Source: a virus. From it: 48,941 nt of DNA. A model generated the notes under the pieces. The model was not told the origin of the DNA, did no database searches, and worked only from the letters and a program-made list of their open reading frames with translations. The position numbers and the translations under genes are program-made. This document shows positions 17,899 through 48,537 of this stretch, one piece after another. Each line of letters opens with the position of its first letter. Position 1 is the stretch's first letter. The stretch covers positions 1-48,941 of the IMG/VR virus record IMGVR_UViG_3300044616_001480, one strand, 5' to 3'.

Positions 17899-18037
17899 TC
17901 CCCTTTATCGGATTGCTGTAGTTCTAAAAGTCGGTTTGTGAAGCCTGCTCTTTTTCCCCCTCGGGGGGAGGACTTGGAGAAAAGCGTCAACAGTCGCTTC
18001 CACTACCCAAACTTTCGTGTAATCTACGAGCATCCCC

Positions 18038-19036
18038 ATGAACGAGCACTTCACACTAAGCGACATCCCCTTTGAGACTTTGCCGCCTGAGAGCATTCGT
18101 ATGCTCTGTGAGGTGGCGGTTCGCCACATGGGTAGCGCTGCCTCCGCTAAGGACATGAGCAACCTGCCCCTTACCCCTGTTAGGGGCATGGACTACCGTA
18201 TTCCTGCAACCATGCGGGCGTGTCAGAGTTACGGGTACGGACACGGAAACGGGGCTTGGCGTGGGCTAGAGGACAACAAAGAGGCTGTCCTTACTCTGCT
18301 TAAGGCAGTTATGCAGGAGAAGCAGAGTCAGCCTCGCACCCATGTCTCGCTGTCCACCAAAGACATCAGCCCGTCTGTTTTTACAAACCCGGATGTTCTG
18401 TCTTTTGTCTTGGACAATGCTTCTAGTCTTGGCTGTGATCGTGGGGGTCAAAACGGAGTCATCGAATCATCGGTGTGGTCAGCGGTCAAGGTAGAGCAAT
18501 GGTTGAGCCTCTTTGAGACTCATCCTGCCCTTGTGGGCAAGGCTTTTGCAAGCCGTCCTGAACTGATCGGTCGCCTTTTTTCTCATGTTTTTCGTGGCTC
18601 CACTTCTGCACCCATAGCCATGAATATTGCCAAGACAGTCATTGGCTTCATGCACATCTACGACAACGATAGTCCTGCGATGCTCCATCGTTTTTGGGTG
18701 GAGAAAGACACTTCCAATCACTACAAGGACGAGGATACTTACAGCGAACTTTTCATGCACCTGTGCGTGGTGTGTCGCAAAGATTCGGTCAACATGAAGC
18801 GCATTGCCGATGATTTGGAAAGTCAGAGCGTTGGCGGCAAAAAGACCCGCCGCCGTGATGCAGGGTGGATGACTATCTACCTGAACACCAAGTGGGATCA
18901 AGGTGACAAGGAGTTTGTCATTCGCTGCTGCCGCCTTGTTCCGCCTTTGTTCAACCTGCTTTACAGCACCGCAAAGGTGTCAGGAGAGATGCGTACCCTC
19001 AAGCGCATGTATCAGTTGAGTGGAGACACGGTGTGA
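18038..19036 (+). CDS. Hypothetical protein (332 aa)
   Basis: First gene of the plus-strand block after the cassette; box A lies at 17950 and its predicted transcript start (17981) gives a 57-nt leader. The protein is helical with no membrane segment. Its C-terminus (RTLKRMYQLSGDTV) resembles the end of the RCC1-like protein at 31502 (ELRSYKHLYRLSG), suggesting a shared terminal motif. No family recognised. Confidence 0.65.
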   Translation: MNEHFTLSDIPFETLPPESIRMLCEVAVRHMGSAASAKDMSNLPLTPVRGMDYRIPATMRACQSYGYGHGNGAWRGLEDNKEAVLTLLKAVMQEKQSQPRTHVSLSTKDISPSVFTNPDVLSFVLDNASSLGCDRGGQNGVIESSVWSAVKVEQWLSLFETHPALVGKAFASRPELIGRLFSHVFRGSTSAPIAMNIAKTVIGFMHIYDNDSPAMLHRFWVEKDTSNHYKDEDTYSELFMHLCVVCRKDSVNMKRIADDLESQSVGGKKTRRRDAGWMTIYLNTKWDQGDKEFVIRCCRLVPPLFNLLYSTAKVSGEMRTLKRMYQLSGDTV

Positions 19037-19073
19037 CAAAAGTGTAATCTATCGGAAAACCGCAAGAATAGTC

Positions 19074-19101
19074 TTGCACGATAGCATACATCGGCTATAA
19101 T
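19074..19101 (+). promoter_or_regulatory. Sigma70-like promoter
   Basis: TTGCAC (19074-19079), a 16-nt spacer, and a perfect TATAAT (19096-19101), 20 nt before the RadA-like gene. A GTGTAATCTA motif lies 29 nt upstream of the -35 box. Confidence 0.75.
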
Positions 19102-19120
19102 CAACAGTTGGGAACTTTTT

Positions 19121-20065
19121 ATGCCACGAACTTCTATTTCAGTTGAAGGAGTGCTTGGACACCTGAGCCTCAACCGTGAGGTTGAGTTCATGGTCCAAAT
19201 GCTCGGCTGGAGTGAATCTCAGATTTTGGGTGCGATCACGACTGCTCACCCGGAACTTTCCAAAGATCAGCAGTCTCTTATTAATCACATTCGTGTCTGC
19301 CGTTCACGATACCGTGCAGATCAGAAAGAGAATGTCGAAGTGGGCGCACTTATTGGTGGCGGAACCGTTACATCCCTTGACAAGATTGCGGACAAGAAGT
19401 TGGTCCGCTTTGCATGTGGCATCGACCACATTGACATGCTTTGGGGATTCTCTGAAGATGGGAAGTCAAAAGGCTTTCCCCGTGGTCAGATCAGTCTGAT
19501 TGCAGGAAGTCCCGGTGTGGGCAAGACTCGCGCAATGATTGCAGTTTGCGGAAAGATTACCGCACCGGATTACCGTCCCGCACTCAAGGCACTTTATTGG
19601 CAGAACGAGTTTGCACTTGAACAGTTCAAGACTGTTTCAAAGACGCAAATCAAGTCGGGCGCACGGTTTAGGTGTGGCGACATTCGCTCTCTCAAAGAGC
19701 AGTTGAAGGTGGTTGAAAAAGAAGTTCCTGACCTTGTGGTGGTTGATTCCATCCAAATGCTTGAAGAAGCAAAGAACAAAACAGGAATGGAAAGATGCAT
19801 CGCTGCGTATAAATCTGCTGCGGTTGAAAGCAACATTCATGTCGTACTAGTTGGTCAGTTGAATAAAAAGGAACAGGTCGCAGGAAGCAGGGTGTTGGAA
19901 CATCTTGTTGACTCGGTATTTACGGCAGTTCGTGACCGTGAAACAGGAGGATTCGCCATCCGTTGTACGAAAAACAGATGGGGAATGTCAGGCATCCAAG
20001 GTTCTTTCAAGCACACAGAAAAAGGCATTGAGCCTGTCGGTGACATTACTCAAACGGAGGATTAA
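19121..20065 (+). CDS. RadA/Sms-like RecA-fold ATPase
   Basis: 314 residues. Walker A GSPGVGKT at 129-136, Walker B DLVVVDS at 194-200, and KNRWG at 274-278, which corresponds to the KNRFG motif diagnostic of RadA/Sms. The glutamine after the LVGQLNK strand matches the RecA-family motif 3. The N-terminal zinc finger and the C-terminal Lon-like domain of cellular RadA are absent. RadA drives branch migration and DnaB-like unwinding during recombination; in a phage it would act in DNA replication or repair. ClpS follows after 2 nt, so both share a transcript from the 19074 promoter. Confidence 0.82.
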   Translation: MPRTSISVEGVLGHLSLNREVEFMVQMLGWSESQILGAITTAHPELSKDQQSLINHIRVCRSRYRADQKENVEVGALIGGGTVTSLDKIADKKLVRFACGIDHIDMLWGFSEDGKSKGFPRGQISLIAGSPGVGKTRAMIAVCGKITAPDYRPALKALYWQNEFALEQFKTVSKTQIKSGARFRCGDIRSLKEQLKVVEKEVPDLVVVDSIQMLEEAKNKTGMERCIAAYKSAAVESNIHVVLVGQLNKKEQVAGSRVLEHLVDSVFTAVRDRETGGFAIRCTKNRWGMSGIQGSFKHTEKGIEPVGDITQTED

Positions 20066-20067
20066 GC

Positions 20068-20346
20068 ATGAACAACGAAACAAGTTTGGTAAACAACAAG
20101 CCCACATTTAAGCCCCTTCCGATGTGGAAGGTGATTGTTCATAACGATGACATCAATACCTATAACCATGTCATTGGGACTTTCATGGAAATCGTGAAAA
20201 TGGACAAGCAGACTGCCTATGTCAAGACTGTTGAGGTCGATAAAGAAGGCTTGTCTATCGTTTCTGTCACTCACAAGGAGCACGCTGAACTTCTGAGAGA
20301 TCAGTTGCAGTCAAAGGCTCTGACTGTCACGATTGAGCCTGATTGA
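20068..20346 (+). CDS. clpS: ClpS, adaptor of the ClpAP/ClpCP protease
   Basis: 92 residues with the ClpS core: WKVIVHNDDINTYNHVIGTF at residues 20-39, including the NDD acids that bind the alpha-amino group of N-degron substrates; AYVKTVEVDKEGLSIVSVT; and HKEHAELLRDQL followed by a terminal strand (LTVTIE). Length and order match bacterial ClpS; the N-terminal extension is the part that normally enters the ATPase pore. ClpS delivers proteins with destabilising N-termini to ClpAP and inhibits other substrates, so a phage copy could redirect host proteolysis. It follows the RadA-like gene in one operon. Confidence 0.92.
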   Translation: MNNETSLVNNKPTFKPLPMWKVIVHNDDINTYNHVIGTFMEIVKMDKQTAYVKTVEVDKEGLSIVSVTHKEHAELLRDQLQSKALTVTIEPD

Positions 20347-20358
20347 TTACAAAACAAA

Positions 20359-20430: not shown

Positions 20431-20523
20431 TTCCTCTTTTTCCCCCTCGCCGGGGAAGTTTGGGGCGTTGGAACTCCAGCGGGGAGAACCATCATCGTTT
20501 ACTACAGTTCGGAGAAATAACAA

Positions 20524-21562: not shown

Positions 21563-21602
21563 GGGGAGGGCGGTTCGCCGCTCTCCCCTTCTCCAACTTT
21601 TT
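21563..21602 (+). terminator. Rho-independent terminator merging into box A
   Basis: GGGGAG/CTCCCC stem with inner GGCG/CGCC pairs (21563-21588), then a T run (21598-21602) that is also the T tract of box A at 21597. Confidence 0.65.
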
Positions 21603-21627
21603 CCCCCTCCCCCGGTGGAGTTGGAAC

Positions 21628-22884
21628 ATGGCAAAGAAGAAGAACACAACCTCTACGACCGCAACCGTCCCTGCTCCCGCTACGGACAACGCTCAGGATG
21701 TCGGACTTACTCCGTCTGAACTGAACGAACTCCGTGAGCGCATGAAGGGAATCGTGTTTCGCATGTACCGCTTCTTTCCCTTTTGGGGACTGCTTGCGGA
21801 GAACTGCAAGGTTTCCATCGTGTCCGATAGCGCAGTCTCAACGGCTTGCGTTGACCGATACGGCAACATCCGTTTCGGAGCAAAGTTCTTCAAGGACTTG
21901 AGCGAGGATCAGGCGTTGTTCGTCCTTGCCCATGAGATCGGTCACGCTGCGTTCAGTCACATTGATCGCCGTCAGAGCCGTGATCCGTTCCTGTGGAATG
22001 TTGCGATTGACTACGCCATCAATCTGCTCCTGAACGACAACTTTGGCGACTCCAAGTATCTCCCGAAGGGTGTGCTCCTTGACAAGAAGTACGCCGGAAT
22101 GTCTGCGGAGGAGATTTACGAGGATGTCATCAAGAACGCCAAAGTCGTGAAGGTCTACACGATGTCGGGCGACTTGGACTACAACGGTCAGGGCGACGAG
22201 GAAGGCGATGGCAATGGCATCGTGGTTCGTGATCGCCGTGCAGAGAAGAAGCAGAGTGAGCAGGGATGGGATCAGGCAATCGCCTTGTCTCATGCCCGTG
22301 CCAAGATGCAGGGCGAGATGCCTGAGTCTCTTGACCGTGAAGTGTCTCGCAAGTTGGAGAGCCGTGTTGATTGGCGTGAAGCCCTGAAGCAGTACCTCCG
22401 CTTTGGCGTGACTCGCATCATGCGCGACCACTACACCTTCATGCCTCCCAATCGGCGGTTTGTCCATCAGGGGCTTTACCTTCCGTCCATGTACGGACAT
22501 GACGCTCCGAAGATCGGCTTTGCCGTGGACACCTCCGGTTCGATGGGTGAAGATGAGATGTCTGCCGCAATCGCTGAGATTGACGAGATTCGCAGACAGT
22601 TCAACTGCCCTCTTTACCTTGTGGAATGCGATGCAGATGTTCACGCAGGGCGTTGGCTCACCCCGGAGGAGTCTTGCCCGACTGCCTTCAAGGGCGGCGG
22701 CGGTACGGACTTTCGCCCTGTCTTTGAGCACATCAAGGACGAGAAGGTTCCCGTGGACATCATGGTGTACCTCACCGATGGCTACGGAGAGTTCGGAGAT
22801 CAGCCTGAAGTGGATGTTCTGTGGCTGACCACTACGAACCAAAAGCCTCCGTATGGTGAGCACATTCAGGTCAATGTCGGGTAA
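21628..22884 (+). CDS. VWA domain / metallopeptidase-like protein (DUF2201 type), MoxR partner
   Basis: 418 residues. The N-terminal domain has LAHEIGHAAFSH with HEIGH at 102-106, a zinc-metallopeptidase-type HExxH signature. The C-terminal domain is a von Willebrand A fold with MIDAS motif DTSGSMGE near residue 300, and matching Thr (GGGGTDF) and Asp (YLTDGYG) positions. This two-domain layout is that of DUF2201-type putative metallopeptidases encoded next to MoxR ATPases. ATG is exactly 31 nt after box A (21597), so leaderless translation is possible despite GGTGGAG nearby. Substrate unknown. Confidence 0.85.
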   Translation: MAKKKNTTSTTATVPAPATDNAQDVGLTPSELNELRERMKGIVFRMYRFFPFWGLLAENCKVSIVSDSAVSTACVDRYGNIRFGAKFFKDLSEDQALFVLAHEIGHAAFSHIDRRQSRDPFLWNVAIDYAINLLLNDNFGDSKYLPKGVLLDKKYAGMSAEEIYEDVIKNAKVVKVYTMSGDLDYNGQGDEEGDGNGIVVRDRRAEKKQSEQGWDQAIALSHARAKMQGEMPESLDREVSRKLESRVDWREALKQYLRFGVTRIMRDHYTFMPPNRRFVHQGLYLPSMYGHDAPKIGFAVDTSGSMGEDEMSAAIAEIDEIRRQFNCPLYLVECDADVHAGRWLTPEESCPTAFKGGGGTDFRPVFEHIKDEKVPVDIMVYLTDGYGEFGDQPEVDVLWLTTTNQKPPYGEHIQVNVG

Positions 22885-22888: not shown

Positions 22889-22922
22889 GGGGTGAGTGGT
22901 GAAAGCCTCTCACCCTCTTTTT
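22889..22922 (+). terminator. Rho-independent terminator merging into box A
   Basis: GGGTGAG (from 22890) pairs with CTCACCC (to 22914); the T run 22918-22922 belongs to box A at 22917. Confidence 0.65.
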
Positions 22923-23030
22923 CCCCCTCCACGGGGGAGTTTGGAGAGTCAGCCGGATGTTCCGGTTGACAGTAGCACTTGAGAGCCGCAAACCAAGTCA
23001 CATGACTTGTATAGGCGGCAAGGAGAAACG

Positions 23031-23701: not shown

Positions 23702-23747
23702 GGGGGTTGGGGCTGAAAAGCCCCTCCCCCGTCCTACGGCTCTTTTT
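23702..23747 (+). terminator. Rho-independent terminator upstream of box A
   Basis: GGGGG-TT-GGGGC pairs with GCCCC-T-CCCCC (23702-23730); after a short gap the T run 23743-23747 is part of box A at 23742. Confidence 0.6.
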
Positions 23748-23827
23748 CCCCCTCTGTCTTTAGATTTAGGGGGTCAGGGCAACATAAGAAAAATCAAGAA
23801 TCTTCTTACATTTGTTACTAACATCAC

Positions 23828-28335: not shown

Positions 28336-28380
28336 ACTTTTTCCCCTTAGGGGGAACAGGTTGTGGCAGCAAGGACGACC

Positions 28381-29298
28381 ATGCCCATCCGACACCTCGG
28401 TTATGCCTGTCAGAACATGACTCTTGGGGCTACGAAGCCCGCCTCCAAGCGTGTCTTTACGGACAGAACGCTGCGGATGGATGGTTTCAGCATCCGCAGG
28501 GTCAATGAACTCGCACTTTCCAACTCACGCGATCTTCTGAAGATCATGTGGTGGAATGTCGAGAACGGCATTCACTTCTTCCGCATTGGTTCGGGAATGT
28601 TTCCTTTCATGGATCACCCGGAACTGAAGTACGGGATTGACGATCTTGCCACCGCACACACCATCAAGGGTGTGTTGGCAGGAGTTGGGGAACTTGCTCG
28701 TAAGAACAGCATTCGACTGTCGATGCACCCGGGACCTTACACATGTCTTGCATCTCCTGACGAGTCTGTTGTTGACAAGTCATTGCTGTGCATGGAGATG
28801 CACTCGCTTGTGGGCGATCTGCTTGGGATGGATGACTTCCCAATCAACATCCATATGGGTGGCGTCTATGACGGCAAGGAAGCATGTGCGGAGCGTTTTG
28901 TCCACAACTTCTCACGACTTTCTGAAGGAGTCAGGCGCAGAATGACCCTTGAGAACGATGACAAAGAGGGCATGTGGACAATGCGCGATCTGCTTCCTGT
29001 TCACGAAAAGACAGGCATTCCACTTGTTCTTGACATTCATCATCACTCTCTCAACTCAGGTGGTGATGATCTGAAAGTTGCTGCTGACATTGCTCTTTCA
29101 ACTTGGGGTGAAAAAACTCCAAAAGTTCACTATAGTGAACCAAGAGAGGGCAGCCGTCCACAAGCACATGCTGACTTCATTGTGAATGAGATTCCTGAAC
29201 TTTGTTCAGTCAGACAATATGATGTGATGATTGAGGCAAAGCAGAAGGAACTTGCCCTTCTCAAATATCGAAACCTCTTTTTCCCCCCAACCGCCTGA
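28381..29298 (+). CDS. uvsE: UvsE/UVDE-type UV damage endonuclease
   Basis: 305 residues in a TIM-barrel layout. The N-terminus RHLGYACQNMTL, the segment NSRDLLKIMWWNVENGIHFF followed by RIGSGMFPF, then SMHPGPY, INIHMGG, TLENDDKE, LVLDIHHHSLN and KVHYSEPREG give the metal-binding His, Glu and Asp series of UVDE nucleases. These enzymes nick DNA 5' to UV photoproducts and other lesions. Start ATG 28381 has AGCAAGGACG upstream; box A at 28337 predicts a 13-nt leader. Its last codons (LFFPPTA) are encoded by the box A of the next gene. Confidence 0.88.
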   Translation: MPIRHLGYACQNMTLGATKPASKRVFTDRTLRMDGFSIRRVNELALSNSRDLLKIMWWNVENGIHFFRIGSGMFPFMDHPELKYGIDDLATAHTIKGVLAGVGELARKNSIRLSMHPGPYTCLASPDESVVDKSLLCMEMHSLVGDLLGMDDFPINIHMGGVYDGKEACAERFVHNFSRLSEGVRRRMTLENDDKEGMWTMRDLLPVHEKTGIPLVLDIHHHSLNSGGDDLKVAADIALSTWGEKTPKVHYSEPREGSRPQAHADFIVNEIPELCSVRQYDVMIEAKQKELALLKYRNLFFPPTA

Positions 29299-29307
29299 GT
29301 TTAGACC

Positions 29308-30429
29308 ATGCCAGCACGCATCTACGACAATCTTTCCGTTCGCATCGCAAGCGTCAGCAACTCTCACTCCGCTGCTCTTATTGGTAGTTCCATTCTTGGT
29401 TGGGGTAGTTCTGCCAAGAACAAGTTGGACTTCCCGAAGGGCGAGTATCAGAGCGTTGCCTGTGGCTTCTCTCACTCCGCTGCCGTTGATACGAGTGGTC
29501 GCATTGTGACCATCGGAAACGCGCTTGGCGGCAAGTTGAACAGCGGAACGCTGAACAGTCGTGGACAGTTCAAGACTGTGCGCTGCTCTCGCAACTACAC
29601 CGCCGCTACGCTTGACTGCTCCGATGGCAAGTATCGCATCGCCGTCTTTGGCGATCAGCGTCAGTACAGCGTTCTTCCCTCTACGGTGTATTCAAAGACC
29701 TCAAAGGACGAAGGTGTGTTCACCTTTGATTCTGCGATTGGAGACTTTGACATCTCTGATGATGGAACCATTGTGATTGACATGGGCAACGGCAGCGTGA
29801 CCGTGGTCGGAGCAAGCATGTACACGGTCAATGGTCTGACTGCACAAGCGGTCAAGGTGCGTTGCGGCGATACGATGAACACCACGACCGTTGCCATCAT
29901 TCACACGACCGATCAGAAGGCTTTTGTTCTCACGCGCAATCACCACGGCATGAAGGTGATGACCGAGATTGCGGGTGATGTGACCGATGTTTTCTGCGGG
30001 AATAAGTATTACGGCTATGTTGTTGCTTGCCGTGAGATCAATCTCGTTGGAGATCATTTCGGAAACATTCGTATTCCCGATGGTTGGCGCATTGAAGGTG
30101 TTGATGGTGGGAACAACGGGTACGCCATCCGTGTGATCGACAACGATTCGGATAAGCACCTTGTTCTTGTTGGCGACAATACGAAGAACAAGGAACTCGT
30201 CATCAATGGCTACGATCATCGTGAATGCCCCCGTAAGGACGGCATGATCTACGAGATTCGTGAGGCAAAGGTTGCGAAGGCAAAGCCCACGGTGACTGCC
30301 GCAGTCAGTACGATTGCTGAAGATGGCGGCGAGGATTCCGATTACGAGTGTGAGCCTTGCAAGTTCCGCTTTGCAGCATCATCTCCTGTTTGTCCACTCT
30401 GCAAGAACGAGGTGACTGCCAATGTTTGA
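29308..30429 (+). CDS. RCC1-like beta-propeller protein with C-terminal zinc ribbon (373 aa)
   Basis: The N-terminal repeats (ASVSNSHSAALIGSSILGWG; VACGFSHSAAVDTSGRIVTI) carry the C/S-x-H-S/T-A-A-L/V-x-x-x-G signature of RCC1 propeller blades. Later blades are diverged. After a Lys/Ala linker a CxxC zinc ribbon follows (CEPCKFRF, later CPLCKNE). RCC1-type propellers bind proteins or chromatin; the zinc ribbon suggests nucleic-acid contact. ATG is exactly 31 nt after box A (29277), which lies inside the upstream gene. Confidence 0.75.
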   Translation: MPARIYDNLSVRIASVSNSHSAALIGSSILGWGSSAKNKLDFPKGEYQSVACGFSHSAAVDTSGRIVTIGNALGGKLNSGTLNSRGQFKTVRCSRNYTAATLDCSDGKYRIAVFGDQRQYSVLPSTVYSKTSKDEGVFTFDSAIGDFDISDDGTIVIDMGNGSVTVVGASMYTVNGLTAQAVKVRCGDTMNTTTVAIIHTTDQKAFVLTRNHHGMKVMTEIAGDVTDVFCGNKYYGYVVACREINLVGDHFGNIRIPDGWRIEGVDGGNNGYAIRVIDNDSDKHLVLVGDNTKNKELVINGYDHRECPRKDGMIYEIREAKVAKAKPTVTAAVSTIAEDGGEDSDYECEPCKFRFAASSPVCPLCKNEVTANV

Positions 30430-30735: not shown

Positions 30736-30766
30736 CTTTTTCCCCCTTTAGGCATGGGTTTCCGGC

Positions 30767-31465: not shown

Positions 31466-31501
31466 CTCGTCTTTTTCCCCCTTTAGCGGTAGGTTTGTTG
31501 C

Positions 31502-32719: not shown

Positions 32720-32764
32720 AACGAACTTCCTCACTTTTTCCCCCTCCCACCGAGGCTTTGAGGC

Positions 32765-33565: not shown

Positions 33566-33599
33566 TCTCTTTTTCCCCCACCGAGAGCGAGTTTCCGTC

Positions 33600-34307: not shown

Positions 34308-34344
34308 TCTTCTCTTTTTCCCCCGCCTCTCTTGAGGTTGTAGC

Positions 34345-35265: not shown

Positions 35266-35297
35266 TCTTTTTCCCCCGCACCGCAGAGGCTTTGAGC

Positions 35298-35980: not shown

Positions 35981-36013
35981 TGCTTTTTCCCCCTTGCAGG
36001 GGGAGGTTGTGGC

Positions 36014-36541
36014 ATGGGATACGGATACCACAACACAGAGCACAAGAAGGCTCGTGCCAAGGCGAGTCGTATCTTGAGGAAGAAGTTGCCCGCAGGCTGG
36101 CGACTCAGGCTATCTATCAAGCGTACTCGTCATCCAAAGCACATTTTCCGCAAAGGCTTCAAGCCATATACGGAAATGAGATACGACTACCATTGGGCAA
36201 CTGCAACAAAGTACCTTGGTCCAACAAAAGACCACAAGGGATACCCCTACCTCAAGTTGTTTCTTCATCCTGATGGCAGTCGTGTATGGAGTCTTTCCAA
36301 CTGGGCTGACCCAAACACCGCACCGTATGTCAGCACTCAACTAGCACTGCTTTCAGCCACCGAAATGGAGAGAGCGTTTGAATGCCTTGAAGCACTCTAC
36401 GACATGTGCGACATTCGTGATGACATGAAGTTGCTCATCGGAATCAGCAAGGCAAAGAGTCTGCCTGACTGGGTAGGTTCTTTTTCCCCCGCCAAGGAAA
36501 CTCTTGAGGCATGGACGACACCCTCATCATCTCCGTGCTGA
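36014..36541 (+). CDS. Basic hypothetical protein; 3' end contains the next promoter (175 aa)
   Basis: Exactly 31 nt after box A (35983). The N-terminus is very basic with the pattern RKKLPAGWRLRLSIKRTRHP, followed by a beta-rich core (KGYPYLKLFLHPDGSRVWSL). A comparable LPPGW segment occurs in the protein at 40558. The frame runs 31 nt past the start of the next gene, and the box A of that gene encodes part of its C-terminus (GSFSPAKE). Confidence 0.6.
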   Translation: MGYGYHNTEHKKARAKASRILRKKLPAGWRLRLSIKRTRHPKHIFRKGFKPYTEMRYDYHWATATKYLGPTKDHKGYPYLKLFLHPDGSRVWSLSNWADPNTAPYVSTQLALLSATEMERAFECLEALYDMCDIRDDMKLLIGISKAKSLPDWVGSFSPAKETLEAWTTPSSSPC

Positions 36542-37242: not shown

Positions 37243-37341
37243 AGCCAGTTGCCCTTTTTCCCCCTCCCCCGGCGGGTTTAGGGCAGACGGCTTGAACGGC
37301 AAGCCTGATTCCAAAGTCCACTACTAGAAAGCAGGACTGAT

Positions 37342-38368: not shown

Positions 38369-38401
38369 GGGGAGGGGCGCAAGCCCCTCCCTGCCCTTTT
38401 T
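38369..38401 (+). terminator. Rho-independent terminator merging into box A
   Basis: GGGGAGGGGC pairs with GCCCCTCCC around a GCAA-type loop; the T run 38397-38401 is the T tract of box A (38396). Confidence 0.75.
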
Positions 38402-38426
38402 CCCCCTGCCACCGGAGACTTGAATC

Positions 38427-38609
38427 ATGGACAAACTTCTCAAGGAAATCAACCTGAACGAATCGGAACTGATTGCTGCTCTTGAGGCGGCTCGTATCGC
38501 TCTCTCCGATGAAGATGTGTTCACGAAGTTGTCGGAAAACTTGGATATGTCGGGAGAAGCCTTGAGCGATTTGCTCAAGAAGATTGAGCGTTTCATGGGG
38601 ATGGAATGA
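38427..38609 (+). CDS. Small acidic helical protein (60 aa)
   Basis: Exactly 31 nt after box A (38396). Predicted three-helix protein (DKLLKEINLNESELIAALEA; DVFTKLSENLDMSGEALSDL). Acidic and Leu-rich, possibly a small helical binding protein. No family recognised. Confidence 0.62.
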   Translation: MDKLLKEINLNESELIAALEAARIALSDEDVFTKLSENLDMSGEALSDLLKKIERFMGME

Positions 38610-38729
38610 GAAGCCTTTACTCCAAGTCCACCAAGACGAGGCGGGTAAGCGACCTTTTTCCCCCGTCAAAGACGGCTTTTCTGACGACGACGAGTCCTGC
38701 TTTTTCAATCACAACCGGAGGCAAGAAGA

Positions 38730-39122: not shown

Positions 39123-39162
39123 GCAGTTCCTCTTTTTCCCCCTTGCGGGACAAGGTTGAGGC

Positions 39163-39660
39163 ATGGCTACACGCAGCACAATCGGAATGGTTCGTCTTAC
39201 AGACGGCAAGATCAACGCGATCTATTGCCATTGGGACGGATATCCCTCCAACAACGGTCTTTGCCTGTACCGGAACTACAATAGCCACGATGGGGCTTGG
39301 TCGCTCATGTTGCTTGGCGACCTATCATCTCTCCGCAGCAAGATCGGAGAGAAGCATGATCTGTTTGATCTTGGCGGTGTTGAGAATCGTGGCGTAACGA
39401 ATGATTGGTGCGATGCTTACGGGCGTGATCGTGGCGATGATGGTTGCGAGATGAAAACCTTTGACAACATTCGGGAGTTCAAGAAGTGGTCGAAGGGTGT
39501 TGGTGCTGACTATCTGTACCTGTTCAAGAATGACGATCAATGGTGGGTGAATAGCCCTTACGAGTCCACCGGATTCAAGAAACTTGAGAAGGTTCTTGTT
39601 GCAGAGGGGGTCATTGATCCGATTGAGGAACTGATCGAAGTGGCGAAGAAGTCGCAGTAG
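39163..39660 (+). CDS. Conserved phage protein with DPI tail (165 aa)
   Basis: Exactly 31 nt after box A (39132). Starts MATRSTIGMVRLTDGKINAI, then YCHWDGYPSNNG and LLGDLSSL: the signature of a widespread unnamed phage protein family of about this length. It ends VIDPIEELIEVAKKSQ, the recurring DP(L/I)xxL tail added after the conserved domain. Function unknown. Confidence 0.75.
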   Translation: MATRSTIGMVRLTDGKINAIYCHWDGYPSNNGLCLYRNYNSHDGAWSLMLLGDLSSLRSKIGEKHDLFDLGGVENRGVTNDWCDAYGRDRGDDGCEMKTFDNIREFKKWSKGVGADYLYLFKNDDQWWVNSPYESTGFKKLEKVLVAEGVIDPIEELIEVAKKSQ

Positions 39661-39793
39661 GCAACTGCCTCTTTTTCCCCTCACCGGAATGGCTTGGAAC
39701 ACATGGGTGCGGCAGGAGTTCTCTGACGAGGCGAGTTGGCGTGTTGCTGACTTGTGCACACCTGACCGCACCCTCCAAACAAAGGAAACAACA

Positions 39794-40518: not shown

Positions 40519-40557
40519 CCAGCCGCCTTTTTCCCCCTCGCAGGGGGAGGTTGTGGC

Positions 40558-41037
40558 ATGAAGCAACAGACTACCGCCTACCATTGGACTGCCGAGCAGG
40601 GTAAGAATGGCCGCTTTGAGTACGCAAAGCGCAAGACTGCAAGGGCTGTCAAAGGACAACTCCCACCCGGATGGTCTTACAAGATCATGGCTCCGTATAT
40701 CGGTGGAGGAGCGCATTGGTCGATCAAGGTCGATTACTTCAATCCAGTCGGGTCTGGAACGCGACAATGGGTGACGCTGCGTTGGTTCCCGTGTGACGAG
40801 AATTGGGATACCGTTTCAATGTTCACGGTTCATGCCGTGATTCGACCTGACAGGCACACGAATGAAATGTATGTCAATCAGTCGTTTCAAGAATGGACGA
40901 AGGACATCGACAAGGTAAAGAGTGTCGTGCAGCAGATTTTCGATGGATTGATTCCTGATCCCCTGATGCAACTTCATGCACGGGCAAAGAAGGCAGCCAA
41001 GCAGTTTTCCCCCACCGATCCCGAGGTTGAGCCATGA
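40558..41037 (+). CDS. Hypothetical protein with DPL tail; 3' end contains the next promoter (159 aa)
   Basis: Exactly 31 nt after box A (40527). Basic N-terminus with AVKGQLPPGWSYKIMAPYIG, beta-rich middle, then LIPDPLMQLHARAKKAAKQF, the recurring tail. The final KQFSPTDPEVEP is encoded by the box A/B element of the exonuclease gene, so the original C-terminus probably ended at the tail and was extended over the promoter. Confidence 0.66.
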   Translation: MKQQTTAYHWTAEQGKNGRFEYAKRKTARAVKGQLPPGWSYKIMAPYIGGGAHWSIKVDYFNPVGSGTRQWVTLRWFPCDENWDTVSMFTVHAVIRPDRHTNEMYVNQSFQEWTKDIDKVKSVVQQIFDGLIPDPLMQLHARAKKAAKQFSPTDPEVEP

Positions 41038-41621: not shown

Positions 41622-41679
41622 ACTAGCCAGTCGCCCGTTTTCCCCCACCGCCCACCGCTTTGGAGCAGAAAGGACAACT

Positions 41680-42219: not shown

Positions 42220-42290
42220 AGACGACGGAAGGGTGGCGGGATGAAACACTCCCGCCGCCCGTTTTCCCCCTTCACCGGAGGCTTTGGAGC

Positions 42291-42722
42291 ATGAACGACA
42301 CGAACCGAACTGTCAAGGTCACGATCACGGACATGAAGATCAAGTCTGCTCCTGAGTGGACGCTTGATGTCACCGTTGATGCTGAGGTTGAATGGGTCAA
42401 GGGTGGCATCGGCTCCTACGAGTTCTGGGGAGCGCAATGCTGCGACAACAGCGCAGGATGGGAGTGGCAGTCTTGGGGCTTTGATCTCATCGTTGCCAAG
42501 CGCATCGACGGATCGCACATCCTGATGGTTTCGCAGCCCATTTACTCTGTTGACAATGCTCGTCGTCTGCTTGAGGATTACGGCATCGACCTGTTCTCTT
42601 GGCTGAATGAACTGAACAATGAGGCAAACAACACCATTGAGGATGCCATCACCAACGAGGTCGCCAAGTTGGATGACAACCCGTGTGCAATGCCTGAACC
42701 GCTATTTCCCGAGGAGGACTGA
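42291..42722 (+). CDS. Hypothetical protein (143 aa)
   Basis: Exactly 31 nt after a box A variant (CGTTTTCCCCC, 42260). Beta-rich N-terminus (VKVTITDMKIKSAPEWTLDV), then a Trp-rich segment (YEFWGAQCCDNSAGWEWQSW) and a helical, acidic C-terminus. The segment GIGSYEFWG is probably structural. No family recognised. Confidence 0.65.
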   Translation: MNDTNRTVKVTITDMKIKSAPEWTLDVTVDAEVEWVKGGIGSYEFWGAQCCDNSAGWEWQSWGFDLIVAKRIDGSHILMVSQPIYSVDNARRLLEDYGIDLFSWLNELNNEANNTIEDAITNEVAKLDDNPCAMPEPLFPEED

Positions 42723-42725
42723 AAC

Positions 42726-42926: not shown

Positions 42927-42967
42927 GGCAGCCGCACTTTTTCCCCCTCACCGGGGAAGGTTGGGTC

Positions 42968-43372
42968 ATGGAGATCAAGAAGGACGCATTCCGGCACTTG
43001 ATATACGAGCGTATGCAGCAACTTGTCTCATCTGTTAGCGCAAGCATTGACGCGCTCAACGAACTCCTCCCCATGCTTGAGGGAGATGAGATCGACAAGG
43101 ATGCAATCTGCTATGAGACAGACGAGTTTCGCGCTGTTATGAAGGACGCATCGGGAGGCAAACACATTGCCCTCCTCCTGCATCCAAACGGACAAACAAT
43201 GCACCGCAGGTTCTACTGCTGGTATTTCGGGGTAGACAGAAATGTCCACGACAACGGATGGCTCATCCTGACCCACCGACATCCAAGCCTGTTCGCTAGG
43301 GGATGCATCATGCGCCCAAACGACTTCACCAAGAGCATGGCACTGCTCAAGACAATGGAGGACACCAAGTGA
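42968..43372 (+). CDS. Hypothetical protein (134 aa)
   Basis: Exactly 31 nt after box A (42937). Helical N-terminus (MQQLVSSVSASIDALNELLP) then beta-rich C-terminal part (GKHIALLLHPNGQTMHRRFY). Four-nt GTGA overlap with the following gene. No family recognised. Confidence 0.63.
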   Translation: MEIKKDAFRHLIYERMQQLVSSVSASIDALNELLPMLEGDEIDKDAICYETDEFRAVMKDASGGKHIALLLHPNGQTMHRRFYCWYFGVDRNVHDNGWLILTHRHPSLFARGCIMRPNDFTKSMALLKTMEDTK

Positions 43373-43593: not shown

Positions 43594-43634
43594 TCCAGTC
43601 GCCCTTTTTCCCCTCGCACCGGGAGGCTTGCACC

Positions 43635-43937
43635 GTGAAGATCAAACACGCACTGGCTGAACTCAAGCGGATGAAGAAGGATTACGGTGAAGATTGCGAC
43701 ATCTTCTACTTCGCCGTTGCTCCTGACTTGGTGATGGACGCAGGCGAGACATTCAACAAGCACATCTCCGTCTATTGGGCGCAAAGAATCCTCAAGGACA
43801 TCAGCGTTGAGGAGGAAACCGTTGGTCATGTATTTCAGGCGTTTGATCGCATGGTTGACGAGCGCGTGAGCCTGTTCAATCCTGATCCGTTGGAAGAACT
43901 ACACGACACAGCAAAGGCAAAGAGGAAGAAGAAATAA
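43635..43937 (+). CDS. Hypothetical protein with DPL tail, GTG start (100 aa)
   Basis: GTG 43635 is exactly 31 nt after box A (43604), showing that the spacing rule also holds for a non-ATG start. The protein has a helix-strand core (KHALAELKRMKKDYGEDCDI followed by FYFAV), a helical middle, and ends NPDPLEELHDTAKAKRKKK, a strong copy of the recurring tail with a basic end. Confidence 0.7.
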   Translation: MKIKHALAELKRMKKDYGEDCDIFYFAVAPDLVMDAGETFNKHISVYWAQRILKDISVEEETVGHVFQAFDRMVDERVSLFNPDPLEELHDTAKAKRKKK

Positions 43938-44245: not shown

Positions 44246-44334
44246 TCCAGCCGCCCTTTTTCCCCCTCTCCCCTTCCCTTTGGGGCATCGCCTCCCGGTG
44301 TGGGAAGCGGACGCAAACGCAAGAGGAGACAGGT

Positions 44335-44769: not shown

Positions 44770-44803
44770 GGGGAGGGGCGAAAGCCCCTCCCCTTCCCTT
44801 TTT
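44770..44803 (+). terminator. Rho-independent terminator merging into box A
   Basis: Perfect 10-bp stem GGGGAGGGGC/GCCCCTCCCC with GAAA loop (44770-44793); the T run 44799-44803 is the T tract of box A (44798). Confidence 0.85.
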
Positions 44804-44828
44804 CCCCCGCAGTCGGAGTATTTCAGGC

Positions 44829-44936
44829 ATGGACACCCTCATCATCATGCTCATCGGATCGAACATCGCGCTGCTTGGCTACCTGTGCCACAAGGACATG
44901 AAGCCCAAGCCCAAGCGGAAGAAGGCGACCGCATGA
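44829..44936 (+). CDS. Tiny membrane protein (35 aa)
   Basis: ATG 44829 is exactly 31 nt after box A (44798). Residues 2-20 are hydrophobic (DTLIIMLIGSNIALLGYLC), followed by a basic tail (KDMKPKPKRKKATA). One membrane helix with a cytoplasmic basic end. Too short for automatic callers; supported by the fixed promoter spacing and the ATGA overlap with the next gene. Confidence 0.65.
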   Translation: MDTLIIMLIGSNIALLGYLCHKDMKPKPKRKKATA

Positions 44937-45314: not shown

Positions 45315-45325
45315 GTCCTTTCTGC

Positions 45326-45368
45326 GAAGGGAGCGTTATCCGAAGTGATGCGCTCCCTTCCTCTTTTT
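45326..45368 (+). terminator. Rho-independent terminator merging into box A
   Basis: GAAGGGAGCG (45326-45335) pairs with CGCTCCCTTC (45351-45360); the T run 45364-45368 is part of box A (45363). Confidence 0.82.
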
Positions 45369-45408
45369 CCCCCTCGCGCCGTCCCTTTGGGATGACGAAA
45401 GGAGAATC

Positions 45409-45805: not shown

Positions 45806-45817
45806 CTCTTGCGTCCT

Positions 45818-45858
45818 GCGGGGCGGGGTGATCCTTTCCCCCGCCCCGCTGCCTTTTT
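45818..45858 (+). terminator. Rho-independent terminator merging into box A
   Basis: GCGGGGCGGGG pairs with CCCCGCCCCGC (45818-45849), T run 45854-45858 in box A (45853). Confidence 0.8.
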
Positions 45859-45897
45859 CCCCCCACCGTGGTAGACTTTCAGCAGAAAGGAAACGCA

Positions 45898-46086: not shown

Positions 46087-46100
46087 CGAACCATCTTGCA

Positions 46101-46142
46101 GGGGAGGGGTTGCATCACGAGCGCGCCCCTCCCCACCTTTTT
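46101..46142 (+). terminator. Rho-independent terminator merging into box A
   Basis: GGGGAGGGG (46101-46109) pairs with CCCCTCCCC (46126-46134); the T run 46138-46142 belongs to box A (46137). Confidence 0.8.
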
Positions 46143-46183
46143 CCCCCGCCGCCTTATCCTTTGGGGCAACAGAAAGGATCAGA

Positions 46184-46501: not shown

Positions 46502-46523
46502 AGCCGTACAGTCCCCCGGATAG

Positions 46524-46560
46524 GGCGGGAGGGTTGACGAAAGTCCCCTCCCGCCTTTTT
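46524..46560 (+). terminator. Rho-independent terminator merging into box A
   Basis: GGCGGGAGGG (46524-46533) pairs with CCCCTCCCGCC (46545-46555); the T run 46556-46560 belongs to box A (46555). Confidence 0.82.
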
Positions 46561-46600
46561 CCCCTTCCATCGTCGTTTTTGGGGCAGAAAGGAACGCAAG

Positions 46601-46858: not shown

Positions 46859-46934
46859 AACAAGGCAGCCGCCCTTTTTCCCCCTCTCCCCGTCCCTTTA
46901 GGGTACAGCCCCAAAGGGCAGAAAGGATCGCAAG

Positions 46935-47300: not shown

Positions 47301-47316
47301 CCCACCGCACCGAATG

Positions 47317-47346
47317 GGGGAAGGGGCGAAAGCCCCTCCCCTTTTT
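47317..47346 (+). terminator. Rho-independent terminator merging into box A
   Basis: GGGGAAGGGGC pairs with GCCCCTCCCC around GAAA; the T run 47342-47346 is that of box A (47341). Confidence 0.82.
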
Positions 47347-47371
47347 CCCCCGCACCGCATGGAGTTCAGGC

Positions 47372-47557
47372 ATGGACAGCAGGATGCGAAACGGAATCAT
47401 CGGAGCAGTCGTCACGCTTTGCGTAGCGTTCGCCGTGTCAGCGGGAGCGATGTGGGTGTTTGGTGTTTGGATGGGATGTAGTCCCGTGATTGTTGCTGGC
47501 TTTCTTGGAGTCGGTTACGCCTGTAACGGCTACTTCAAGCCACCGAACAAGCGGTAA
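47372..47557 (+). CDS. Small two-helix membrane protein (61 aa)
   Basis: ATG 47372 is exactly 31 nt after box A (47341). Two hydrophobic segments (GIIGAVVTLCVAFAVSAGAM; PVIVAGFLGVGYACNGYF) separated by a short turn, with Arg/Lys at both ends, consistent with a hairpin membrane protein. Holin-like in size and topology, but no lysis genes are nearby. Confidence 0.63.
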   Translation: MDSRMRNGIIGAVVTLCVAFAVSAGAMWVFGVWMGCSPVIVAGFLGVGYACNGYFKPPNKR

Positions 47558-47678
47558 CGCACCGCACCGAAGCACCGCACCCACCGTAACGCATGGGGGA
47601 AGAAAGAAGGGGAGAGGAGTACATCCCTCTTTTTCCCCCACAAGGGGCATTTTTGGGGCAACAGAAAGGATCAGACGC

Positions 47679-47870
47679 ATGAACGAGGACTACTACAAGA
47701 ACACCACCGAATCGTGGGAATGGCAGAAGGCAAAGGAAGCCGACTCCCTCACGCAGGAATGGGTCGCCCGCTGCCAACGGTTGGAAGCGGAGATGAAGCG
47801 CATGAAGGAAGACATGAAGCGGCTACAGATTGAGCGCGACTTGCTCCTCTCCATCGTGAAGGGCAAGTAA
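47679..47870 (+). CDS. Small coiled-coil protein (63 aa)
   Basis: ATG 47679 with AGAAAGGATCAGACGC; predicted transcript start 47660. Residues 25-60 form a charged coiled coil (CQRLEAEMKRMKEDMKRLQI). Likely a small oligomer. No family recognised. Confidence 0.63.
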   Translation: MNEDYYKNTTESWEWQKAKEADSLTQEWVARCQRLEAEMKRMKEDMKRLQIERDLLLSIVKGK

Positions 47871-47956
47871 GCACCAATCACGCGCATACATGGCGGCTGG
47901 CATCCCTTTTTCCCCCGGAAAGCGTCCTCTTGGGGTGCAGAAAGGAGCCAGTCGCC

Positions 47957-48115
47957 ATGAAGTCACAGATTGACATCGCTCGTCGCCTTGCTTGGGAGGC
48001 AAGTCGGGACGAGATCGCAGCAGGTCGTCGCGTTCGCTCCAAGACTTGGGGCAAGAAGTCGCGTGACCCTCGCAAGTCTCGTCGTGAGGGTAAGCGCGAA
48101 CTCTCGCGTATGTAG
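47957..48115 (+). CDS. Small very basic protein (52 aa)
   Basis: ATG 47957 with AGAAAGGAGCCAGTCGCC; predicted transcript start 47937. Rich in Arg and Lys (GRRVRSKTWGKKSRDPRKSR), with an N-terminal helix (IDIARRLAWEASRDEIAAG). Probably binds nucleic acid. No family recognised. Confidence 0.6.
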   Translation: MKSQIDIARRLAWEASRDEIAAGRRVRSKTWGKKSRDPRKSRREGKRELSRM

Positions 48116-48196
48116 CGCAAGATACTCCCGCCGCCCTTTTTCCCCCTCCCGTCGCCCCTTTGGGTCAGCCCAACAGGGCAGAAAGGACGCAGCAAG

Positions 48197-48400
48197 ATGA
48201 AGCAGAAGCAGCAGGACAAGCCGTTCGGGTGCGCCGGTGACGGGCGCGAGGTCGAAGCCCGCATCACGGGCAAGGGAGGCAAGTCGTGGACAAGCCTCGA
48301 CCGCAAGGCAGCAGCGGAGGGAGATTCCCTCGCCTTCATCGGTCGCCTCTGGCATTGTGTGAAGCACAACTGCCCGACCCCCGAAACCGCCATCGCCTAA
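48197..48400 (+). CDS. Small hypothetical protein (67 aa)
   Basis: ATG 48197 with AGAAAGGACGCAGCAAG; predicted transcript start 48167. Basic and Gly-rich N-terminus, then SLAFIGRLWHCVKHNCP with three-residue-spaced Cys/His. No family recognised; followed by a hairpin. Confidence 0.58.
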   Translation: MKQKQQDKPFGCAGDGREVEARITGKGGKSWTSLDRKAAAEGDSLAFIGRLWHCVKHNCPTPETAIA

Positions 48401-48416
48401 CGGTGGCAACCGCCCC

Positions 48417-48444
48417 GAAGGGGGAGCCGCAAGGCTCCCCCTTC
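48417..48444 (+). terminator. Terminator-like hairpin
   Basis: Perfect 12-bp stem GAAGGGGGAGCC/GGCTCCCCCTTC with GCAA loop; an outer AACGGTG/CACCGTT pairing extends it. The T run lies 20 nt further on, in box A (48464). Confidence 0.7.
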
Positions 48445-48537
48445 ACCGTTTACTCCCGCCGCCCTTTTTCCCCCGCTCATCGTCCCTTTAGGGCATCAAC
48501 CCAAACGCCCCAAACGGGGCAGATAGGACGCAGCAAG

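Follow-up and report, generated by a model that had tools for sequence, protein, structure and literature searches.

Results

The 48,941-nt stretch of DNA analysed here (the window), which lies on an 83.9 kb contig of a large uncultured phage, raises the question of why the same two short boxes precede many small genes across a long block, and of what kind of signal they form. The window was searched for the first box, box A (CTTTTTCCCCC, at most one mismatch), and 37 matches were found between 17950 and 48464, all on the + strand, against a mean of 1.19 and a maximum of 5 in shuffled sequence. A variant box A, AGTTTTCCCCC, at 41003 was added, giving 38 copies (Table 1). Thirty-seven of these are likely to be real. 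The match at 38654 is probably a coding coincidence and not a promoter: it encodes LFPPS, and a related contig also encodes LFPPS there, in a copy without the TT described below (read by eye). The promoter copies fall in a single block, at least 31 kb long and read in one direction, and no more than 59 nt separate 30 of the 38 boxes from the stop of the preceding ORF (ORFs of at least 50 aa).

Counting from the first base of box A, the base 31 nt downstream was defined as +1. Over the 38 copies this base is A in 30, G in 6 and C in 2; the base at -1 is C in 30, and TT occupies -7/-6 in 37. When positions 11-89 after the box A start were profiled in all 38 copies, TT peaked at offset 24 (37 copies; 22 at offset 23; mean 2.2), C followed by a purine at offset 30 (30 copies; next 12, mean 5.8), and ATG at offset 31 (18 copies; next best 4). 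The second box, box B, consists of TT, then G (25), any base, a purine (35), G (28) and C (29; n = 37). The copies share descent, so these counts are not independent. The stretch from -5 to -1 is G+C-rich, which is odd for DNA that needs to melt and is a point against a promoter reading.

The original prediction of a 38-copy element from 17.95 kb onwards thus held, with 37 copies found by search plus the one at 41003, and with 38654 probably coding. Its invariant 31-nt geometry held except at 39671, where the distance is 30 nt and box B and the purine are shifted together. Its count of purines at +1 (36 of 38) held, but is weakened as independent evidence, 19 of them being first bases of start codons. 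Box B, given as YTTTGGGGC, held only in part, the real pattern being looser.

Table 1. Box A copies in the window, from box A start to +1.
Feature	Position	Strand	Remarks
Promoter copy	17950..17981	+	leader type; first gene of block 18038-19036
Promoter copy	20436..20467	+	leader type; AAA ATPase 20524-21546
Promoter copy	21597..21628	+	ATG at +1; DUF2201 protein 21628-22884
Promoter copy	22917..22948	+	leader type
Promoter copy	23742..23773	+	leader type; gene 23936-24658
Promoter copy	28337..28368	+	box A ends in T; leader type; UvdE-like gene
Promoter copy	29277..29308	+	ATG at +1
Promoter copy	30736..30767	+	ATG at +1; directly after tRNA-Leu
Promoter copy	31471..31502	+	ATG at +1
Promoter copy	32734..32765	+	ATG at +1; DUF6915 gene
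Promoter copy	33569..33600	+	ATG at +1
Promoter copy	34314..34345	+	ATG at +1
Promoter copy	35267..35298	+	ATG at +1
Promoter copy	35983..36014	+	ATG at +1; spacer with GGAGG
Promoter copy	36480..36511	+	ATG at +1
Promoter copy	37254..37285	+	leader type with 5' hairpin; DUF932 gene 37342-38361
Promoter copy	38396..38427	+	ATG at +1; strong hairpin just upstream
Box A match, probably coding coincidence (LFPPS)	38654..38685	+	not counted as promoter
Promoter copy	39132..39163	+	ATG at +1
Promoter copy	39671..39701	+	box A to +1 distance 30, not 31
Promoter copy	40527..40558	+	ATG at +1; spacer with GGAGG
Promoter copy	41003..41034	+	variant box A AGTTTTCCCCC; ATG at +1
Promoter copy	41636..41667	+	box A CGTTTTCCCCC; leader with AGAAAGGA
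Promoter copy	42260..42291	+	box A CGTTTTCCCCC; ATG at +1
Promoter copy	42937..42968	+	ATG at +1
Promoter copy	43604..43635	+	GTG at +1; no box found at orthologue in nearer relative
Promoter copy	44256..44287	+	leader type
Promoter copy	44798..44829	+	ATG at +1; strong hairpin just upstream
Promoter copy	45363..45394	+	leader type
Promoter copy	45853..45884	+	leader with AGAAAGGA
Promoter copy	46137..46168	+	leader with AGAAAGGA
Promoter copy	46555..46586	+	leader with AGAAAGGA
Promoter copy	46874..46905	+	leader: 5' hairpin, then AGAAAGGA
Promoter copy	47341..47372	+	ATG at +1
Promoter copy	47629..47660	+	leader with AGAAAGGA
Promoter copy	47906..47937	+	leader with AGAAAGGA
Promoter copy	48136..48167	+	leader: 5' hairpin, then AGAAAGGA
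Promoter copy	48464..48495	+	leader; hairpin further in

The position of the start codon divides the copies into two types. The first start codon was located in 128 copies from four contigs: it is at +1 in 52 (ATG in 49) and at +10 or beyond in 75, with none found in one; no start codon occurs at +2 to +9. In the window, ATG begins at +1 in 18 of the 38 copies and GTG in one. Start codons thus supply half of the +1 bases, and the number of purines cannot by itself count as independent evidence for an RNA start. Of the window copies in this start-codon count, 19 lack ATG at +1 (the GTG copy and 38654 among them); all 19 keep TT and 18 keep the +1 purine, which means that translation does not explain the geometry; it is the leader copies that, by inference, provide independent evidence for an RNA start at +1. 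The copies with ATG at +1, about half, would make leaderless mRNA, an inference from positions only, as 5' ends were not measured.

A leader of at least 9 nt is present in most non-ATG copies; it contains a Shine-Dalgarno-like motif, which a hairpin near +1 often precedes. A GC hairpin arm lies within the first 8 nt in 18/29 non-ATG copies on contig G17 (random 4.4%), 7/21 on G3 (3.8%), 4/20 on G1 (3.1%) and 3/10 on G18 (3.5%). Shine-Dalgarno-like 4-mers in -20 to -5, present at about 31% of random places, were found in 15/18 ATG-type copies in the window, 13/17 on G3, 6/7 on G17 and 6/7 on G18, compared with 7/19, 7/21, 14/29 and 8/10 of the other copies, respectively. For 5-mers the corresponding numbers (ATG-type vs. 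other) were 6 vs. 2, 7 vs. 1, 3 vs. 0 and 6 vs. 3. With such spacers the ATG-type genes are translatable from RNA starting upstream, and the motifs suggest that they are also read in this way. Folding energies (MFE, 45 nt) below -15 were found just upstream of 14/38 copies vs. 10.5% of random places, and some of these upstream hairpins look like terminators. Immediately next to box A, hairpins with at least 4 GC pairs show only a modest excess (7/37 vs. 4.6%).

A nearer relative (G3), whose DNA is 68-83% identical to that of the window phage, holds the orthologous gene for 36 of the 38 window copies, a box in the relative not being required. Box A stands near the expected place at 35 of these 36 orthologues, with an identical offset in 15, and no box was found at the G3 orthologue of the gene behind the GTG copy at 43604. 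Aligned blocks are collinear, and the spacing from box A to +1 is kept. Across 36 copy pairs identity is 47% in the spacer, 68% in box B, 82% from +1 to +3 and 39% upstream; the pairs were chosen for box A on both sides, so that the 94% identity of box A is by construction.

In more distant relatives box A itself has been exchanged. A second lineage carries an unrelated box A, CCCGAAWCCCGAAAACKGG, in 55 copies, with box B and the position of the element kept: T occupies -7 and -6 in 53 and 51 copies, and +1 is a purine in 52. In a third lineage (box A ACCGGCGCGCA, 13 copies) box B is weak, +1 is A in 6, G in 3, T in 3 and C in 1, some ATGs lie at +2 or +4, and the geometry is less exact. On G17, 21 genes behind window promoters have a protein match; for 17 of them a script located a copy of the second-lineage element no more than 260 nt upstream, or for 18 counting the DUF2201 gene, which the script overlooked; a few of the 17 copies perhaps belong to a neighbouring gene. 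On G18 the position is kept at 11 of 14 genes by script, and at 12 with DUF2201. Box A has thus been replaced between related phages with the start point and the positions at orthologous genes kept, and box B is retained in two of the three lineages. Wholesale exchange of box A with the rest kept implies that the DNA specificity of the inferred recognition factor changed between lineages. That this factor, which was not identified, is phage-encoded is the simplest reading and a likely one, inferred from sequence alone.

Beyond the block, the strict pattern had no match to its left on the 83.9 kb contig; a looser scan there gave one weak + strand match at window position 13395 (CGTTTTCCTCC), with TT out of place. 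To the right of the window end, one good copy lies at contig position 82889, and a box A without TT and without the purine at 83267. A strict form of the pattern, met by 5 window copies, had 0 matches in 84,980 prokaryote species, one genome each.

No polymerase or sigma gene scored above cut-off in the contigs examined, all of which may be fragments. This holds for the T7-type polymerase profile PF00940 (0/5 contigs, a search in which the control gave no match anywhere), for sigma profiles PF04542 (8 contigs) and PF04545 (6 contigs), and for beta' profile PF00623 (0/6 contigs), which can miss diverged phage subunits. With the phiFa_44 polymerase as query the best hit in five contigs had E = 0.69 and was not convincing. 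Two sigma-like matches fell below cut-off, one at 37514-37621 (E = 0.008, two stops inside) and one at 2035-2103, in a protein with HNH- and HTH-like parts. With regard to the DxDxD motif of two-barrel phage polymerases, one DxDGD occurs in a box-driven 232-aa protein, and it is unaligned in the orthologue of that protein.

A sigma70-type promoter, marked by a TATAAT-like -10 (A-11, T-7) and a TTGACA-like -35, was rejected: T-7 is present in 37/37 copies, but A-11 in only 11/37, there is no conserved TTGACA near -35, and sigma70-like sites in 29000-48941 are not above chance (8 found vs. 10.9 expected). T7-type promoters are one contiguous element of about 23 bp, from about -17 to +6. That form is not met either, the strongest part here lying at -31 to -21 and being followed by a poorly conserved spacer.

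Discussion

We consider it likely that each copy is a phage-specific promoter whose RNA starts at the +1 purine, with a start codon at that very base in about half; this is inferred without RNA data. A sequence-specific initiation factor, itself inferred, would contact box A (-31 to -21, CTTTTTCCCCC or CGTTTTCCCCC) and also box B (-8 to -1, TT at -7/-6), and RNA would begin at the +1 purine. Where the start codon coincides with that base the mRNA would be leaderless in vivo; most other copies would yield a leader of at least 9 nt that carries a Shine-Dalgarno-like sequence, in many cases downstream of a short 5' hairpin. The specificity of the factor, most simply phage-encoded, would have changed between lineages.

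The original prediction had proposed a fixed protein contact geometry, which is supported as the best fit, no transcript data being available. Free variation of spacing in relatives, named as refuting, was not seen: the nearer relative keeps the spacing, and box B holds its distance from +1 even in phages with another box A sequence, less exactly in the third lineage. The motif search it proposed for the rest of the genome gave the weak match at 13395 and the good copy at 82889, and the proposed search for a polymerase or sigma gene gave none above cut-off. Non-resemblance to the sigma70 and T7 consensus held. It contained neither the dichotomy between ATG at +1 and leaders, nor the lineage-specific box A, the Shine-Dalgarno-like spacers of ATG-type copies, the coding coincidence or the 30-nt copy.

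Four other explanations were weighed. The rival closest to ours, with which it overlaps, keeps the promoter and assigns it to host polymerase, with either a host alternative sigma factor or a host sigma factor plus a phage activator on box A. This remains possible. Box A lies near the binding place of activators that substitute for the -35 contact, such as MotA, which acts with host sigma on T4 middle promoters, and no phage polymerase or sigma gene was found in the contigs examined. Against it stand the missing sigma70-type -10 and the lack of excess sigma70-like sites, the absence from the prokaryote species searched of the strict form that 5 window copies meet, which fits a host regulon poorly, and the difference in box A between related phages. 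RNA processing, with a long transcript cut between -1 and +1 by an endonuclease (of phage or host) that recognises the box sequence, would give the same 5' ends and the same start-codon dichotomy, and read-through RNA is plausible given how closely most boxes follow an ORF. We regard it as unlikely: a pyrimidine followed by a purine at -1/+1 is typical of initiation, the signal has two parts separated by a poorly conserved spacer, and stable hairpins before about a third of the copies, some terminator-like, would often end the RNA first.

It is also unlikely that RNA begins between the boxes, with box B and the spacer forming a leader with a Shine-Dalgarno sequence. The enrichment of such motifs in ATG-type spacers speaks for this, but it leaves unexplained why start codons fall either on +1 itself or no closer than 9 nt beyond it, and why TT, C and the purine keep their offsets in non-ATG copies. 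A non-transcriptional role (gene-cassette site, recombination site or translation signal) would suit boxes before many small genes over a long block; we think it very improbable, since in leader copies the boxes are tied to +1 and not to ATG, and since aligned blocks are collinear with the relative.

If the promoter reading is correct, the phage has a private start signal, each relative having, as it were, its own lock and key. The family would be a natural experiment in promoter re-specification, in which about 40 sites per genome changed together with their positions kept, and co-evolution of the polymerase or sigma factor with its sites would be directly testable once the gene is found. It would also offer new orthogonal promoter-factor pairs, and one element yielding leaderless and leader mRNA in roughly equal parts. 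A bolder reading, which we think less likely than not, is an undescribed initiation class: an unknown polymerase or factor would read a distal box of 11-19 bp (-33 to -15) and a G+C-rich start element, and would drive dozens of promoters in one block, re-specified at least twice among related phages by wholesale exchange of the distal box with start point and promoter positions fixed.

Several known systems resemble parts of this picture. In phages phiEco32 and 7-11, sigma-dependent promoters have similar genome positions and dissimilar sequences, with distant phage sigma factors (PMC8948821). Their elements are tAATGTAtA and the bipartite GTAAtg-(16)-aCTA, with six and eight promoters and starts 6-9 nt from the element (PMC8948821). 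The window phage likewise keeps promoter positions at orthologous genes with sequence differing between related phages; unlike them, it has 37 copies, a box A that spans -31 to -21, a box B that reaches up to +1 and a start codon at +1 in about half, and no sigma gene was found in the contigs examined. The two-barrel single-subunit RNA polymerases of Thermus phage P23-45 use phage-specific promoters, of which one class, with seven start sites, is GC-rich, and phiFa has a homologue of the P23-45 gp64 polymerase (PMC10770324). The AAA and DUF2201 proteins of the window phage have relatives in phiFa, and no such box was seen before 20 phiFa genes (by eye and 10-mer counts, the commonest 10-mers recurring four times); the likeness to P23-45 promoters rests on kind, without letter-for-letter comparison. 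In the early and late promoters of giant phage AR9 a short phage-specific consensus recurs tens of times at a fixed distance from +1 (late consensus AACA-(6N)-TA/G; leaders of 26-491 nt), and recognition is said to differ between related phages (PMC5312081). The window phage shares the tens of short copies and the fixed distance but, unlike AR9, gave no beta'-type match in the contigs examined. In cluster K mycobacteriophages, the SAS, a 13-bp GGGATAGGAGCCC adjoining start codons, and the ESAS, whose half-sites vary between subclusters, recur directly before many gene starts, mostly in one orientation (PMC3203893). That arrangement is shared; unlike the SAS, the window motif is tied to a putative RNA start, and identity was rejected, GGGATAGGAGCCC having 0 matches with up to 2 mismatches allowed.

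Copies of the element in the window and their geometry

The main box, box A, reads CTTTTTCCCCC in the window (a virus record, 48,941 bases), where it was matched 37 times at ≤1 mismatch against 1.19 matches expected. All 37 are on the + strand and none lies left of 17950; a variant box A at 41003 raises the total to 38. With offsets counted from where box A begins, TT was found at offset 24 in 37 of 38 copies and C followed by a purine at offset 30 in 30 of 38 (12 copies at the runner-up offset). Offset 31 holds an ATG in 18 of 38 (4 copies at the runner-up offset). The base 31 nt after the first base of box A is referred to as +1, the putative RNA start, and box B is the second box, which ends at -1 and carries TT at -7/-6. 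Over the 38 copies the +1 base was A in 30, G in 6, and C in 2. Two copies, 38654 and 39671, broke the rule: the former is probably a coding coincidence, and the latter has a spacer one nucleotide shorter. When these two were left out, every copy (36/36) carried TT at -7/-6 together with a +1 purine. The original prediction of 38 copies, with a purine 31 nt on in 36 of them, was confirmed, and its invariant 31-nt geometry held except at 39671 and at 38654. It had overlooked that in 19 copies a start codon begins exactly at +1.

Start codons at +1 or behind a leader

In those 19 window copies the start codon is ATG in 18 (ATG type) and GTG in one, and 16 of the 19 open reading frames (ORFs) have no in-frame alternative ATG, GTG or TTG upstream. 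In a set of 19 other copies, which takes in the GTG copy and 38654, an ATG follows at least 9 nt downstream and within 70 nt in 18; in 15 of the 18 it is preceded by a Shine-Dalgarno (SD)-like motif that is 4 nt or longer. An RNA starting at +1 would either be leaderless or have a leader with room for an SD motif.

The survey was extended to 128 copies from four contigs: the window (37), its nearer relative G3 (38), and G17 (36) and G18 (17), which form a second lineage with another box A. TT was demanded, which excluded 39671 and others lacking it, and the first start codon opening an ORF of ≥35 aa was counted. This codon was at +1 in 52 copies, at +10 or further in 75, and was not found in one. 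No copy in the four contigs (0/128) had such a start codon at +2 to +9, and an ATG of any kind was likewise absent from these positions in all 128.

Conservation in the nearer relative

A viral contig scan identified IMGVR_UViG_3300042521_003909 (83,922 bases), which covers the window with a single difference, and another contig of the same virus, 60,608 bases long. A second virus was represented by contigs G003 and G004, which do not differ from one another over 38.4 kb and share 68-83% DNA identity with the window in collinear blocks. Genes downstream of the boxes were matched by protein, without requiring a box. G3 had a protein match for the genes behind 36 of the 38 window copies (none for 38396 and 46555). 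Box A, searched as N[TG]TTTTCCC[CT][CT] in an interval reaching 60 nt upstream and about 70 nt downstream of where it was expected, was present at 35 of the 36 matched genes, 15 times at the identical offset; no box A was found near the expected place at the orthologue of 43604.

Thirty-six ungapped pairs of window and G3 copies, set by the best downstream BLAST hit and not checked singly (38654 is among them, and one other pair breaks the order), were compared by region. Identity was highest in box A (94%) and at +1 to +3 (82%), followed by box B (68%), the stretch from +4 to +50 (50%), the spacer (47%) and -80 to -41 (39%). The box A value is partly a matter of construction since both members of a pair were found by box A; the test was therefore repeated unconditioned, giving the 35/36. 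The CTTTTT and CGTTTT versions of box A swap between orthologues. The spacer between the boxes is poorly conserved. In the relatives, where a motif search had been suggested with the original prediction, box A is kept in G3 and is a different sequence in G17/G18 and in a third lineage.

Replacement of box A in other lineages

Using the 418-aa DUF2201 protein as query, we retrieved G17 and G18, which reach 72-73% in the best tblastn segment, together with L071, a fragment of 4.5 kb. CTTTTTCCCCC is absent from all three, and L071 carries the second-lineage box. The element of G17 and G18 consists of CCCGAAWCCCGAAAACKGG at -33 to -15, then GTTAGRGY, then a purine. In a set of 55 copies, from which two weak G17 matches were dropped because of where they lie and any match lacking full flanks was excluded, T was found at -7 in 53 and at -6 in 51, and a purine at +1 in 52; ATG starts at +1 in 16 copies and GTG in 6. 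A script placed a copy ≤260 nt upstream of 17 of the 21 window promoter genes with a G17 protein match. The DUF2201 gene, missed by the script because its N-terminus was unaligned, raises this to 18. For G18 the tally was 11 of 14, or 12 counting DUF2201. At offsets like 109 or 210 nt, a copy could be the promoter of a neighbouring gene. The placement of +1 was identical between lineages at 29308, 32765 and DUF2201.

The third lineage (61-62%; contigs G21 and L085) was found through the AAA alignment. Its box, ACCGGCGCGCA, lies at -30 to -20, with 13 copies in L085. Box B differs and is weak, the +1 base is A in 6, G in 3, T in 3, and C in 1, and ATG occurs at +1, +2, +4 or behind a leader. 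In G21 a copy lies near 2 of 4 matched window genes by script, 3 of 4 with DUF2201. A pattern scan for this lineage proved too loose, returning at least 80 contigs with single matches apiece, and was set aside as evidence. The third lineage supports the position of the element and the exchange of box A more than it does the exact start.

Extent of the block

The 83.9 kb contig extends 33.8 kb left of the window. No match to the strict pattern was found left of the block on this contig, and a looser scan gave one weak match there, at window position 13395. Right of the window there is one good copy and one box A lacking TT and purine. The G17 block spans about 11.1 to 45.7 kb, and past its end there is just one match, a weak one at 56.0 kb. 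In all three lineages a divergent gene of the same protein family marks the left edge; the third lineage has two more box A matches further left still, at 10695 and 12479.

Leaders and hairpins

A perfect hairpin of ≥4 GC pairs, its 5' arm starting within 8 nt of +1, is present in 18 of the 29 non-ATG copies of G17 (random, 4.4%), mostly preceding AGAAAGG. The stems differ (GCGGC/GCCGC, GCGGG/CCCGC, GCGAG/CTCGC); the evidence is this listing, with no further covariation analysis behind it. The same hairpin is rarer in the other contigs (4/20, 7/21, 3/10). Hairpins ahead of box A are enriched and not general (14 of 38 window copies), and hairpins abut box A in 7/37 in the window and 7/38 in G3. 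Terminators overlapping the T run of box A were dropped as a general feature, the enrichment being only modest. The AAA gene's leader, which runs from 20467 on and has counterparts in G3, G17 and G18, has CTCCAGCGGGGAG soon after +1, kept across two lineages with different box A.

Other genes and features

Features of the window and its relatives
Feature	Position	Remarks
Genes with PNATPEVLLKA-type repeats	8686-10798	Several genes; many tandem segments match in G17
Phage ClpS adaptor	20068-20346	
Protein with many GPGRPK repeats	23936-24658	Conserved C-terminal part; relatives keep the protein
Phage tmRNA	25456-25812	Tag ANESLMAVAA
Group I intron RF00028 (Rfam)	26601-27050	Overlaps HNH endonuclease gene; region 26296-27050
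UV-endonuclease UvdE	28363-29298	
Six tRNA genes		Glu, Gly, Arg, Leu x2, Lys
N-terminal tag proteins	G17 (IMGVR_UViG_3300018050_001860) 49-65 kb; G3 43-48 kb; G1 26401 (-)	

GPGRPK repeats are AT-hook-like. The HNH endonuclease gene is 93% identical in the distant G17, above its neighbouring genes, and has no match in G3. The tRNA Gly and the second tRNA Leu end directly 5' of a promoter copy. A short N-terminal tag (MNWYKxAQ-like or MxYK(I/L)SKxxWxxIG) is common to diverse proteins, among them a G17 dehydrogenase (phrog_4941); 13 such starts were seen in four contigs scanned, none in G18. It could conceivably be a targeting or packaging propeptide.

Searches for the recognition factor and host

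The suggested search for a phage RNA polymerase or sigma factor gene was run on the window and relative contigs with profiles PF00940, PF04542, PF04545 and PF00623 and a phiFa polymerase search. None gave a convincing hit, and a polymerase, sigma or activator gene was not identified in these contigs, which may all be fragmentary. Two weak sigma-like hits were rejected, one (37514-37621) with two internal stops and one (2035-2103) within a protein having HNH- and HTH-like parts. DYDGD in the 30767-31465 protein was discarded as a polymerase signature, being unaligned in the orthologue and lying in a protein of only 232 aa. The product of 17179-17898 (-), at the left edge of the block in all three lineages, was modelled as a candidate regulator and dropped; nothing connects it with the boxes so far. 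The predicted structure, of low confidence (pLDDT 63), is similar to Fic folds, with a best E of 0.0072 and no match at E ≤0.001; the usual Fic motif has a His, and this family has C or S in its place. The first gene of the block, 18038-19036, has a helical predicted fold without clear match.

The host was not found, and the AAA alignment gave no relative in genome_contigs. A helicase search for further genome parts returned its own contig alone. The strict promoter pattern, met by 5 window copies and 3 in G3, had 0 matches in one genome each for 84,980 prokaryote species. Of 16 records searched, 12 had one match each; these, like most single-copy contigs of a further contig search, look chance-like.

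Interpretation and comparison with known systems

We consider the element most likely to be a phage-specific promoter with its start at +1, a reading inferred without RNA evidence. A recognition factor would contact box A and box B, and RNA would start at +1. We infer that this factor is phage-encoded, because box A differs from phage to phage although the promoters stay in place, and because the strict pattern is absent from the prokaryote genomes searched.

A start upstream of +1 is a rival reading. SD-like spacer motifs leave room for it: they are commoner in ATG-type than in other copies in three contigs (less clear in G18), so those genes could also be translated from RNA starting upstream. 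Together with the position of 30 of 38 boxes within 59 nt of the preceding ORF's stop, we read these motifs as putative dual use, again without RNA evidence. Start codons only at +1 or at ≥+10 are what an RNA start at +1 predicts, and we regard the upstream start as very unlikely. The copies are related by descent. Archaeal TATA-type promoters have a box near -26 and leaderless mRNA; we rejected such a promoter since the window has ClpS, a tmRNA and leaders with SD-like motifs. Promoters of the Bacteroidota -33/-7 type were also considered.

For the letters of the three boxes no published account was found in the literature searched, which left most subscription papers out of reach; of the papers matching box letters, none of those examined concerns phage promoters by title. 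P23-45 has a GC-rich phage-polymerase promoter, and phiFa, a member of its phage group, has relatives of the window's AAA and DUF2201 proteins (PMC10770324). Both proteins match many other phages too, and this kinship therefore says little on the polymerase. The nearest precedent for a promoter-sequence change between related phages is the phiEco32/7-11 pair, which resembles the phages described here in having a changed promoter box between relatives (PMC8948821).
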